A stretch of 64,000 bases of DNA. It comes from Blastopirellula sediminis (GTDB lineage: Bacteria; Planctomycetota; Planctomycetia; Pirellulales; Pirellulaceae). The stretch covers positions 2,692,720-2,756,719 of the forward strand of contig NZ_JAJKFT010000010.1 in the NCBI RefSeq assembly GCF_020966755.1, written 5' to 3'. The position numbers were made by a program, and so were the translations under genes. The notes under the pieces were generated by a model, which worked only from the letters and a program-made list of their open reading frames with translations, made no database searches and was not told the origin of the DNA. Below are positions 2,600 to 6,670 of this stretch, piece after piece (within the stretch, counting starts at the first letter, position 1; each line of letters begins with the position of its first letter).

Positions 2600-4363
2600 C
2601 TAGCTCGCGATTGACCCACATCGAGAATCAACCGACTGGACCGCAGCCCCCAATTTTTTTTCATCGCGTAGCGCATCTCCCGTAGGGTCCGCTGTGCGGA
2701 CCGCCGACGCGTCAATCGACCTGGCCAATCTGTTATCGCTTCCCATGGTCCGCACAGCGGACCCTACGAGAGGAGTGGACTCGACCGCGTCTTTTTTTTC
2801 TTGGGCCGATTGGATCAATCGATACTTTGGATCGTAAAACCGTTTCTCGTCAACGATCTTCTCAATCTCCCCCGCCGCAACCATCCGGTCCCAACCGCGG
2901 GCGAACTTCGTGCCGTTCATGCCGCAGTTTTCGCGAACCCGCAGCTTCGTCGCATGCGCTTCGCCGAGGTCGGTCATCGCCAGGCGAATTCGGGACCGCA
3001 TTCGTTGATCGAGCGCGGCGTCCTTTAATCGTTCCGCTTCATCTTGCAGCGTATCCGCCTCATGCACGATCGTCTTCCAGCTTCGCCCGTTCTTGGTCGT
3101 AGGGCAGGCCGTGCCTGCCGCTCTTGTTGCGAGCATCTCCATTTCGGCCGCTCTGCTTGCGAGCGTCTCCATTTCGGCAGGCACGGCCTGCCCTACGTTG
3201 GTCAATCTTCCTTCGTCGACATCGACGCCCCATTCGCCCCCTTGCCCGGCGTAGCCGCCGAGCGCTAGCCAGAGGCGATGCTCTCCGCTCCCCGGCGCAT
3301 AACTTTGGCGGCGATTCACCAACAGCCACTGCTGGGCGAAGTCGAGATTGCCGGCGAGGATTGAAGCTTCCAACTTGCCAGGCTTCATTTCCTTGCGAGT
3401 TTGCACGCAGAGTATCGGCGTGGCGCCGTTATCGAGACAACACTGCGCAAGCGTCTGCAGCGCTTCGGCTTGCTTTCGTTTCCCCGTCGACGAGAGACGA
3501 ATCGCATCGATCACCACCACTTCTAACTCGTGCTTCGTGATCCAATCGCGAAGTTTCCCCACGGTCTCGGGATCGGCTGGATCGTCGGTGGTCAGTAGCC
3601 ACATCAGATTATCCGTGGCCGGCGCCGACTTACGAGCTTCGCCCCAACGCTGCGTGAGATCGGTCAGCGTTTGCTGTTGATTACTGCTACACGCGAAGCC
3701 GACGCGCAGTGGCTTTTCGGCCGCGAAATGATTCAAAAACTTTCCTCCGCTGGCGAGCGCCGCGCATAGATCGACGGCGAGCGAGCTCTTCAGCGTTTTG
3801 CTCGGGCCGACGATGACTGCTGGTTCGTTACGTGTGAGGAGATTCGCTAAGAGCCACTCGCGCGGCTGTTGCTCGGCGAACAGTTCTTCCGTGGTGAGCG
3901 TTCGAAACGAACTGCCGCCGCCCAGTTCGAGACGGACGATTTCTCCATCCGGCGGCAATTCGACCGGCTCCGGCGTCAGCCGTTTTCGTAAGGTCGCCGC
4001 GTAGTCGGTAATGTTGTTCAGGTCGCCGCCGGAGTGCATCACTGCTTGAATCAATGCTGACGCGGTCAGCTTGTCGTAGCCGTAGGTGAGGAGGTCGGCG
4101 AGCAACTGATGGTCGTCTCGATCTTCGTCGCCAGTGAGGTGCAGCCCGAGGAGGGCCGAGTAGATGTCGCGATGACACGGGACGCGGAAAACTTGCAACG
4201 GGAGCGCATCTTCGCTCAGGCGCTCCGGGTACATCATCATGCAGGCGAGCCACTGCGCTTCGACCAGCTCTTCGCTGGCCGAGACGCTGTTCGCGTCTTT
4301 GTTCTTTTTCTTTTGCTTCGCGCGCAGCAGGGCGCCGAGGCGCCGAATTCGGGCCTTTCGCAT
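2600..4363 (-). CDS. RepA/DnaB-like AAA ATPase with in-frame palindromic insertions
   Basis: A 587-residue ATPase. Residues about 30-130 resemble the helical N-terminal domain of DnaB-type helicases. The ATPase core has a Walker A loop VGPSKTLKSS (185-194) and a Walker B strand EVVVIDAIRL (281-290), typical of RepA/AAA_25 proteins that bind or unwind DNA. Residues about 450-518 look like a small winged-helix domain. Residues 390-422 are encoded by a 98-base inverted-repeat element, and residues 532-561 by an 88-base one. Both lie in linkers: one between ATPase and winged helix, one after the winged helix. No replication or mobility gene adjoins it and its target is unknown; the gene sits in a repeat-rich island. 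A role in replication or in a mobile element is inference only. Confidence 0.75.
   Translation of the reverse strand: MRKARIRRLGALLRAKQKKKNKDANSVSASEELVEAQWLACMMMYPERLSEDALPLQVFRVPCHRDIYSALLGLHLTGDEDRDDHQLLADLLTYGYDKLTASALIQAVMHSGGDLNNITDYAATLRKRLTPEPVELPPDGEIVRLELGGGSSFRTLTTEELFAEQQPREWLLANLLTRNEPAVIVGPSKTLKSSLAVDLCAALASGGKFLNHFAAEKPLRVGFACSSNQQQTLTDLTQRWGEARKSAPATDNLMWLLTTDDPADPETVGKLRDWITKHELEVVVIDAIRLSSTGKRKQAEALQTLAQCCLDNGATPILCVQTRKEMKPGKLEASILAGNLDFAQQWLLVNRRQSYAPGSGEHRLWLALGGYAGQGGEWGVDVDEGRLTNVGQAVPAEMETLASRAAEMEMLATRAAGTACPTTKNGRSWKTIVHEADTLQDEAERLKDAALDQRMRSRIRLAMTDLGEAHATKLRVRENCGMNGTKFARGWDRMVAAGEIEKIVDEKRFYDPKYRLIQSAQEKKDAVESTPLVGSAVRTMGSDNRLARSIDASAVRTADPTGDALRDEKKLGAAVQSVDSRCGSIAS
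2681..2768. repeat. Palindromic element inside the ATPase gene, C-terminal copy
   Basis: The arms at 2681-2702 and 2747-2768 are perfect 22-base reverse complements (left arm begins CGTAGGGTCCGCTGTGCGG), separated by 44 bases. The element is translated in frame as residues 532-561 of the overlapping minus-strand ATPase. Confidence 0.92.
3099..3196. repeat. Palindromic element inside the ATPase gene, internal copy
   Basis: The arms at 3099-3120 and 3175-3196 are perfect 22-base reverse complements (left arm begins GTAGGGCAGGCCGTGCCTG). The bases between them include two direct copies of a 30-base unit (3121-3150 and 3151-3180) with four differences. The whole is translated in frame as residues 390-422 of the ATPase, giving the peptide ends VGQAVPAE and AGTACPT. 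Confidence 0.92.
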
Positions 4364-4551: not shown

Positions 4552-4717
4552 TGGGTGGCCCGACCAGTCGGTGACGACTGGTTGGGTCGCTTTAGCGACA
4601 AGATGCCGCGCCATGCGGTTGGAGGTGGTTGAGCGTGCGAGTTTTTGAGACCGGATGGCGCTGCATCTTGTTGCTGCGCAACCCAGCCAGTTCTGTGGGG
4701 AACTGGCTGGGCCACCC
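4552..4717. repeat. Large inverted repeat of a two-hairpin module with compensatory changes
   Basis: A module of about 65 bases at 4552-4618 recurs inverted at 4653-4717, roughly 75 percent identical. Each copy folds into two hairpins on its own. In the left copy a 12-bp stem CCCGACCAGTCG/CGACTGGTTGGG is followed by GTCGC-TTTA-GCGAC. In the right copy, read on the minus strand, the stems are CCCAGCCAGTTC/GAACTGGCTGGG and GTTGC-GCA-GCAAC. Differences between the copies keep the pairing. Both copies end in CAAGATGC(C/A)GCGCCAT. The intervening 34 bases show nothing. Confidence 0.85.
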
Positions 4718-5191: not shown

Positions 5192-6670
5192 TTACTCGCG
5201 GGTGCGGCCGGCGTCGCGGATCGTTTGGAGGCGGATTTCCATCTCTTTCAGCTTCTCCGGCGACGAGTTGGCGAGGTTCTTTTCTTCGCCGATGTCTTTG
5301 GAGAGGTTGTAGAGCTGGGCCTTGTTCTTCCCTTTCGCTTCGACGTACTTCCAGTCGCCGCTGCGGAGCGAAAGTTTGGAGAAGGCATGTTCGACCAGTT
5401 CGTCGCGGCCGATCTTCGTCTTGCCGAGCAGAGCGTCCGCAACGTCAAGGCTATCGGGCGCCGCTTCGGCCGGCAGCGATTGGCCGGTCAACTTGGCCAG
5501 TGAAGCGAGGAAGTCGATCTGGCAAACCAGGGCTTCCGACTGGCCCGGTTTCACTTCGCTCGGCCAGCGGACGATGGTTGGGACGCGGGTGCCTCCTTCG
5601 TACTCGCTGTACTTGCCGCCGCGATAGGGACCGGCCGGCTTGTGATCGCCAAGCAGTTCGACCGCTTGATCGACGTAGCCGTCATCCAGGACCGGGCCGT
5701 TGTCGCTCGACAGAATGACCAAGGTATCTTCGGTCAGCTTGTTGCGATCAAGCGCTTCCAGGATCTGACCGACGCACCAGTCGAACTGCAGGATCGCATC
5801 GCCGCGCGGGCCGTGACCGCTTTTGCCGACGAACCGCGGATGCGGAACGCGGGGGACGTGGATGTCGTGCGTCGAGAAGTAGAGGAAGAACGGCTTGTTG
5901 GCGTTGTCGTCGATGAACGCGACCGCTTTTTCGGTGATGTCGTCGGCCATGTCTTCGTCGACCCAGCGCGCCGATTGGCCGCCGGTCATGTAGCCGATGC
6001 GGCTGATGCCGTTGACGATCGTTTTATCGTGACCGACCGAGAGCTTCATCTTCAGCAGTTCCGGATGTTCCTTGCCGGTCGGTTCGTCGCCAACCGGTTT
6101 GCTGTAGCTGACTTCGATCGGATCGTTGGGGTCGAGCCCAACGACATGATGGTTTTCGACATAGACGCACGGGACGCGGTCGCCGGTCGCTGGAATCAGG
6201 AACGAATAATCGAACCCGCATTCGAGCGGACCAGGGGCGATCTTTTCGTTCCAGTTGACGTTCCCCTTGCCGAGGCCGAGATGCCATTTGCCGACGACGC
6301 CGGTCTTGTAGCCTGCGTCACGCAGCATCGAGGGGAGGGTGACTTCGTCGGTCGGAATGATCAGCGACGCGTCCCCCGGCAGAATGCCGGTTCCCTTCTT
6401 GCGCCACGCGTAACGCCCGGTGAGGAGCGAATAGCGGGAGGGGGTGCAAGTGGCCGAGCCGCAATGTCCATCGGTGAACTGCAAGCCTTCTTTGGCGAGC
6501 CGATCGACGTTGGGGGTGGAGAACGATTTGGCGCCGTAGCAGCTGAAATCGCCATAGCCGATGTCGTCAGCGTAGATCAGGACGATGTTTTTCGGCTGGA
6601 CGGCCAGGGCCGGAGCCGACAGCAAGCTGACCAAAAGTGCGGCCAGGGCCAGATTTCTCAGGTGACGCAT
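5192..6670 (-). CDS. Secreted type I sulfatase
   Basis: A 492-residue arylsulfatase-like enzyme that hydrolyses sulfate esters, probably of algal or other polysaccharides, in the periplasm or outside the cell. The signal peptide ends near SAPALAV. The metal site begins at IYADDIGYGDF (Asp35, Asp36). The formylglycine signature is CTPSRYSLLTGRY with Cys75 as the residue modified by a sulfatase-maturating enzyme. GKWHLGLG follows at about 127. The ATG at 6670 has AAGG five bases upstream. It is transcribed alone, away from the deaminase, and ends at a good hairpin terminator. Planctomycetes carry many such sulfatases; the substrate cannot be read from sequence alone. Confidence 0.95.
   Translation of the reverse strand: MRHLRNLALAALLVSLLSAPALAVQPKNIVLIYADDIGYGDFSCYGAKSFSTPNVDRLAKEGLQFTDGHCGSATCTPSRYSLLTGRYAWRKKGTGILPGDASLIIPTDEVTLPSMLRDAGYKTGVVGKWHLGLGKGNVNWNEKIAPGPLECGFDYSFLIPATGDRVPCVYVENHHVVGLDPNDPIEVSYSKPVGDEPTGKEHPELLKMKLSVGHDKTIVNGISRIGYMTGGQSARWVDEDMADDITEKAVAFIDDNANKPFFLYFSTHDIHVPRVPHPRFVGKSGHGPRGDAILQFDWCVGQILEALDRNKLTEDTLVILSSDNGPVLDDGYVDQAVELLGDHKPAGPYRGGKYSEYEGGTRVPTIVRWPSEVKPGQSEALVCQIDFLASLAKLTGQSLPAEAAPDSLDVADALLGKTKIGRDELVEHAFSKLSLRSGDWKYVEAKGKNKAQLYNLSKDIGEEKNLANSSPEKLKEMEIRLQTIRDAGRTRE

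Follow-up and report, generated by a model that had tools for sequence, protein, structure and literature searches.

The 64,000 nucleotide stretch of the Blastopirellula sediminis genome analysed here (the window) carries between the ORFs at 2600-4363 and 5192-6670 a pair of inverted repeats that is very probably a REPIN/BIME-type doublet of REPs, distinguished by an unusual second hairpin: a non-autonomous element mobilised in trans by a REP-associated tyrosine transposase (RAYT). The two copies, at 4553-4618 on the forward and 4651-4717 on the reverse strand, have their heads facing outward and share the same order of parts, namely a GGGTGG head followed by hairpin 1, hairpin 2 and a tail CAAGATGC(C/A)GCGCCAT that contains CAAGATG in each case (Table 1). 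An earlier sequence-only reading of this DNA had described the stems, the second stems, the tail and the inverted orientation, all of which we could confirm from the sequence, and had put the copies at about 75 percent alike, in line with the 50 of 69 alignment columns at which they are identical; the conserved GGGTGG head, also a part of the feature, is absent from that description. Hairpin 1 ends in a G (4586) that can alternatively pair at the foot of hairpin 2, as the reading had drawn it. With as many as 3 mismatches allowed, a search of the window for the tail motif returned these two sites only, where shuffled sequences lead one to expect 0.13.

Table 1 Coordinates of the doublet, its parts and the neighbouring gene in the window
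Feature	Position	Strand	Basis or remark
Multi-copy AAA_25 ATPase gene beside the doublet	2600..4363	-	also matches DnaB N-terminal, weakly
Whole heads-outward doublet, REPIN/BIME-like unit	4553..4717	.	orientation, subtype pairing, ssDNA fold
Left-copy head GGGTGG, with GTGG at the foot of hairpin 1	4553..4558	+	genus and cross-genus conservation
Left-copy hairpin 1, subtype a, AGTC tip, loop 4571-4574	4559..4586	+	folding, covariation
Left-copy hairpin 2, TCGC-TTTA-GCGA	4587..4598	+	folding, covariation
Left-copy tail CAAGATGCCGCGCCATGCGG; AAGA is the best-kept part across genera	4599..4618	+	pattern search, alignments
Spacer separating both tails	4619..4650	.	sequence layout
Right-copy tail CAAGATGCAGCGCCATCCGG	4651..4670	-	sequence, pattern search
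Right-copy hairpin 2, TTGC-GCA-GCAA	4671..4681	-	covariation; not the energy optimum of the copy alone
Right-copy hairpin 1, subtype b, AGTTC tip, perfect 12-bp stem 4682-4693/4700-4711	4682..4711	-	sequence
Right-copy head GGGTGG	4712..4717	-	sequence

Folded as single-stranded DNA the 165 nt doublet reaches -60.2 kcal/mol (z = -9.9), a value that none of 200 shuffled sequences equalled, in a structure where head pairs with head, tail pairs with tail and both hairpins 1 stand out as side arms. The window copies folded singly give z scores of -4.7 and -5.1. Hairpin 1 fits the description of a REP as a palindrome of about 20-50 nt that can fold within a single strand, the whole unit being longer. 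For the right copy alone energy folding favours another pairing over hairpin 2, and the support for hairpin 2 therefore comes from covariation.

The repeat family is present in all four genomes of the host's genus (the host G000, G018, G107 and G080; G, C and L numbers are our handles for genomes, contigs and loci). A first search located 30 places in the host at E ≤ 1, with copies 77-100% identical to the query and so fairly diverged, and a covariance model trained on 43 copies from the genus gave 34 host matches at E ≤ 0.01. At E ≤ 0.001 the model matched at least 33 sites in G000, at least 25 in G018, at least 26 in G107 and at least 7 in G080. The 43 copies (alignment A1) came from 51 genus loci, two near-identical and six partial copies having been left out, and across them the GGGTGG head is invariant or at least 90% conserved. 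Among the 145 other genomes of the taxonomic family matches were seen in G020 and G062 only, in a search whose filters lose weak matches and which therefore does not make absence elsewhere firm. When 149 genomes were searched by pattern 12 had matches, lone matches being at the level of the reversed control, and more than single matches were confined to G000, G018, G080, G107, G014 and G020.

Among the 68 listed matches of at least 51.4 bits in the four genus genomes we found 14 close pairs, which account for 28 of the 68 and are all heads-outward, with chance neighbours expected at no more than 0.04 per genome. By the R1 model the two matches of the window doublet are 22 nt apart, and those of the 14 doublets 22-93 nt. 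Matches below 51.4 bits added one heads-outward pair (G018:C1:3967709/3967847), two same-orientation neighbours in G107 (C4:723898/724016 and C4:235148/235435) and two sites at which both strands of one palindrome match. Every one of the 14 doublets (seven in G000, six in G018 and one in G107) joins a subtype a copy, with AGTC or a near variant at the tip of hairpin 1, to a subtype b copy with AGTTC at that tip, a typing that covers all doublet members and part of the singletons; the rule stands at ten of ten once the five doublets linked to an AAA_25 gene are counted as one. Because it holds in G000, G018 and G107 the two window copies are two old subtypes kept together, and the window doublet is an old heterodimer, not the outcome of fresh divergence between equal copies. 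The differences singled out by the sequence-only reading are fixed subtype differences. Covariation is strong both within the genus and across genera.

Five of the host's seven doublets, that of the window included, lie just upstream of copies of the AAA_25 gene, and among the eight closest host copies of this gene five have a doublet in that position and three have none. The AAA_25-linked doublets probably spread with the gene as passengers and for this reason do not represent five independent insertions. Matching stretches of AAA_25 number 19 in G000, 26 in G080, 31 in G107 and 21 in G018, many genes giving two (G107:C4:777637 and G000:C10:2198072 are examples of copies), and three of the G107 copies are contained in ~2.7-2.9 kb repeats with a mutual similarity of 94-99%. 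We considered an AAA_25 element with the repeat as its ends and rejected it on account of the three close copies that have no repeat upstream. Within the window ORF a GTAGGGC-type palindrome may be read in frame at residues VGQAVPAE, which is a guess from the translation.

Both hairpins keep their pairing as the letters of their stems change. In the genus alignment 95.3% of cells are paired compared with 43.8% in the best slid version, and 62 cells are changed on both sides compared with 17 in shuffles, a cell count reached by none of 500 shuffles; pairs with both-sided changes number 6, which 60 of the 500 shuffles reached. Such changes affect 5 of the 12 pairs of hairpin 1, where G-T pairs are also common at two adjacent pairs, and one of the 4 pairs of hairpin 2 switches from C-G (23 copies) to T-A (18 copies). 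A pattern fixing only the head, CCC/GGG and CAAGAKG matched 53 times in G020 and 6 times in G014; the matches listed from these genomes have stems entirely different from those of the genus. A sequence-based cross-genus alignment (A4) of 29 hand-picked repeats, mostly one or two per RAYT-relative locus and mostly found with the structural model, which favours pairing, has 94.6% of its cells paired (24.5-45.7% in slid versions) with both-sided changes at 12 of 13 pairs, and RNAalifold predicts both hairpins from it. The head and the AAGA box are nearly unchanged across genera, the head reading GGGTGG or GGGTAG (GTGG/GTAG) in 27 of the 29 rows and TTAG in the other two. Judged from these alignments, the folded shape, more than the letters, is what several planctomycete genera have kept. 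The sequence-only reading had named many copies without significant covariation as the outcome that would speak against it; many copies with strong covariation were found. A closing stem between the GGGTGG head and the tail (columns 1-6 with 64-69) was also tried and has 90.3% of cells paired, but none of its 6 pairs changes on both sides and it is unsupported.

In other genomes, mostly of planctomycetes, the repeat architecture is linked to one group of RAYTs. The gene G014:C140 encodes a RAYT of 170 aa flanked by two inverted copies of that genome's version of the repeat, and its relatives in G080 (55%) and G107 (54%), both members of the host's own genus, are flanked on both sides by two-hairpin repeats whose heads read GGTTAG or GGTTGG. 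Two RAYTs, those of G014 and G080, were run against NCBIfam NF047646 ('REP-associated tyrosine transposase') and passed its cut-off of 80 with 115.1 and 111.9 bits respectively. Scanning named genomes with the G014, G080 and G107 RAYTs yielded 80 RAYT-relative loci, which we split at a tblastn E of ~1e-29 into 29 close relatives and 51 others, a division of our own made post hoc after the first results. Model matches over these loci fall almost entirely in the close relatives (68 of 69), and a match lies within 700 bp of the gene at 22 of the 29 close RAYTs compared with 1 of the 51 others (Fisher p ~1e-12). Matches on both sides were found at 15 of the 29, the nearest copies being heads-outward at 7 of these 15 and mixed at the rest. 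Seven close RAYTs have no match within 700 bp, among them L369 and L371, which begin at or a few bases from a contig end, and L379, with 438 bases before the gene; at L371 a model match overlaps the RAYT's own end. The repeat beside the RAYT at L362, from a Planctomycetaceae MAG, is nearly that of the window itself (a 79.5-bit match at 2393-2465, the RAYT match starting at 2501 and the gene being truncated by the end of its contig). Most of the 29 close RAYTs come from sequences titled as planctomycetes, with L364, L366 and L371 titled Desulfarculus or Desulfarculales, and five genomes of our choice with close RAYTs contain 22, 29, 65, 44 and 21 model matches at E ≤ 0.001. A strict two-hairpin scanner applied to 28 close and 52 other loci found the architecture within 600 bp at 15 close loci, all with TRG- or TR-type heads, and at 4 others, none with a head of this type. 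As it also matches reversed sequence (5 of 28 close and 3 of 52 other loci) the covariance model gives the better count.

A close member of the linked RAYT group is missing from the host, where the best candidate is 39% identical with no such repeat nearby, and likewise from G018 (best E 4.3e-13, 28%), although the sister GGTTGG family of G018 includes six identical 50-mers. None of the 11 Y1_Tnp matches of the host genome falls inside the window, which agrees with the earlier statement that no gene there encodes a REP-associated transposase. One RAYT-like Y1 gene of the host, G000:C10:1368125 (149 aa), has a heads-outward doublet ~21 nt past its stop codon. Its protein has no clear similarity to the linked RAYT group, and near its syntenic relatives in G107 (74%) and G018 (56%) the repeat is absent with other REP-like repeats in its stead. 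Across 94 scanned Y1 loci, some of which show the same gene twice, model matches occur only at this gene, at L324 and at the two known RAYT-C loci L317 and L318, and in G020, with its 53 pattern matches, none of the seven Y1 loci covered (six genes) has one. Given the lack of a close RAYT and a Y1 neighbourhood that is not kept, the host copies may be relics or may be served by another RAYT. The slot downstream of the RAYT-like gene (L055, L056, L057) holds the doublet in G000 and GTAGGGC-type palindromes in G107 and G018, contents that suggest REP turnover at one site.

Several other explanations were weighed against a mobile REP doublet. The compensatory changes could stem from a mutational process, hairpin-templated repair or gene conversion of palindromes, and not from selection on the fold. 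Such repair and conversion are known in general for palindromes; however the conserved head, the AAGA box and the RAYT link would be left unexplained, and we regard this origin as unlikely, though it is compatible with the element being a REP doublet. It is distinctly unlikely that the 149 aa RAYT-like gene of the host is the enzyme that spreads the family: the doublet just after its stop codon points in that direction, but the syntenic relatives have other REP-like repeats in place of this one and the same gene is one of only four matched places among the Y1 loci.

A transcribed element whose hairpins act in RNA, as an attenuator, an mRNA stabiliser or a small RNA with mobility secondary, would predict covariation equally well and could accommodate both the adjacent G-T pairs of hairpin 1 and the stable folding of the copies. 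Inverted doublets, a GTRG head and a distribution linked to RAYTs are, however, traits of REPs, and with no Rfam match at the gathering threshold in the window a structured RNA seems very improbable. The sequence-only reading had proposed selection on a folded form, whether a REP-like element, a small RNA or the substrate of a transposase-like enzyme; the many copies, the covariation and the RAYT-adjoining architecture favour the REP-like and transposase substrate options, whereas the small RNA option gained no evidence. We give least credence to the repeat being the terminal inverted repeat of a transposon such as the multi-copy AAA_25 element. Three AAA_25-carrying segments of 2.6-2.9 kb in G107 do have the repeat at both ends, but in addition to the close AAA_25 copies without it the host has repeat copies (e.g. 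C4:405241, C4:802686 and C4:1122071) that are more than 100 kb from any AAA_25 match, and the spacers of the doublets span just 22-93 nt.

The REP family probably owes its spread to an enzyme that cuts single-stranded DNA. The doublet consists of two inverted, slightly different REPs, in each of which a GTRG head at the foot of a hairpin is joined by another, shorter-stemmed hairpin and a CAAGA box. On DNA in single-stranded form, as occurs in replication, a HuH/tyrosine RAYT would bind the head and hairpin, cut next to the REP and paste the doublet elsewhere, by analogy with the RAYTs of E. coli and others that have been studied (PMC8266576, PMC6006769). The second hairpin and the CAAGA box may add to what the enzyme recognises or may determine where it cuts. 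Duplication of the AAA_25 gene would have carried the window copy to its place, and the RAYT group responsible for spreading the family would either have been lost from the host or have been replaced there by another. We tentatively propose, as a possibility rather than an expectation, that the mainly planctomycete RAYT group reads a bipartite single-stranded DNA substrate (GTRG head and hairpin 1 with hairpin 2 and CAAGA box), that the a+b heterodimer of the genus acts like the distinct left and right ends of a transposon, and that the doublet and not the single REP is the mobile unit.

With the REP/REPIN/BIME and RAYT systems (REPtrons) of E. coli and Pseudomonas, as portrayed in the text of PMC8266576, PMC8049555 and PMC6006769, the window family has in common GTRG at the foot of a hairpin, inverted doublets, dispersed copies and a HuH-tyrosine RAYT with adjoining repeats. 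It differs from that portrayal in its second hairpin and the CAAGA box after hairpin 1, in a unit of ~66 nt against 20-50, in tens of copies against hundreds (the 34 of the host being far fewer than the roughly 600 REPs given for E. coli K12 in PMC8266576) and in a host without a close member of the linked RAYT group. The text of PMC3733652 describes, for P. putida and P. fluorescens, GTAG REP dimers whose spacers are structured, along with degenerated GTAG-1 units adjoining unrelated stem-loops; these are likewise heads-outward heterodimers with a stem-loop beside the REP, and REP doublets, heterodimers and extra stem-loops next to REPs are in this respect already known. In the window family, by contrast, the second hairpin is fixed in place, followed by a fixed box and kept across genera. 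The same text reports several REP families and many tyrosine transposase genes in the planctomycete R. baltica, families that we compared by text description only. TnpA-Y1 class 2, as given in Table 1 of PMC6006769, shares with the system described here RAYTs that carry HVH and Y[IM]H.NPVRAGL motifs and lie next to REPs, and by eye the tyrosine motif resembles those of subclasses 2.1, 2.2 and 2.6 listed there. Unlike IS200/IS605 elements there is no transposase gene between the hairpin ends, as the 14 doublets enclose only their short spacers. In the open-access literature compared, which for PMC3733652 took in the text, we found neither the fixed two-hairpin form nor its link to a RAYT described.

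The REP/RAYT pairs studied in vitro come, according to PMC8266576, from a few proteobacteria. Here the stems are freely replaced between genera while head, second hairpin and CAAGA box persist, which amounts to a natural mutational scan of possible RAYT recognition. The consistent a+b composition of the doublets likewise bears on why REP heterodimers are preferred, a preference for which PMC3733652 sees no obvious explanation in its text.

Other repeats occur in the vicinity. At 2439 (+), 4744, 4950 and 5064 (-), 23924 (+) and 24047 (-) the window contains members of another REP-like family, GTAGCCCGAAGCGCAAGCGAGGG, with 3 mismatches at most. The same family lies on both sides of the Y1 transposase gene G000:C2:538147, and a variant of it on both sides of the Y1 genes G000:C10:1338602 and G080:C1:2014637. 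A cluster of several Y1 transposase genes is located at G107:C2:268322-275076, and the repeat model matches weakly at two sites ahead of the first gene of the cluster, at distances of ~1.1 and 0.6 kb. On contig G000:C4 (e.g. L010, L013, L016 and L017) single copies of the repeat stand among GGACTGGACCGC...TTTTTTT repeats.
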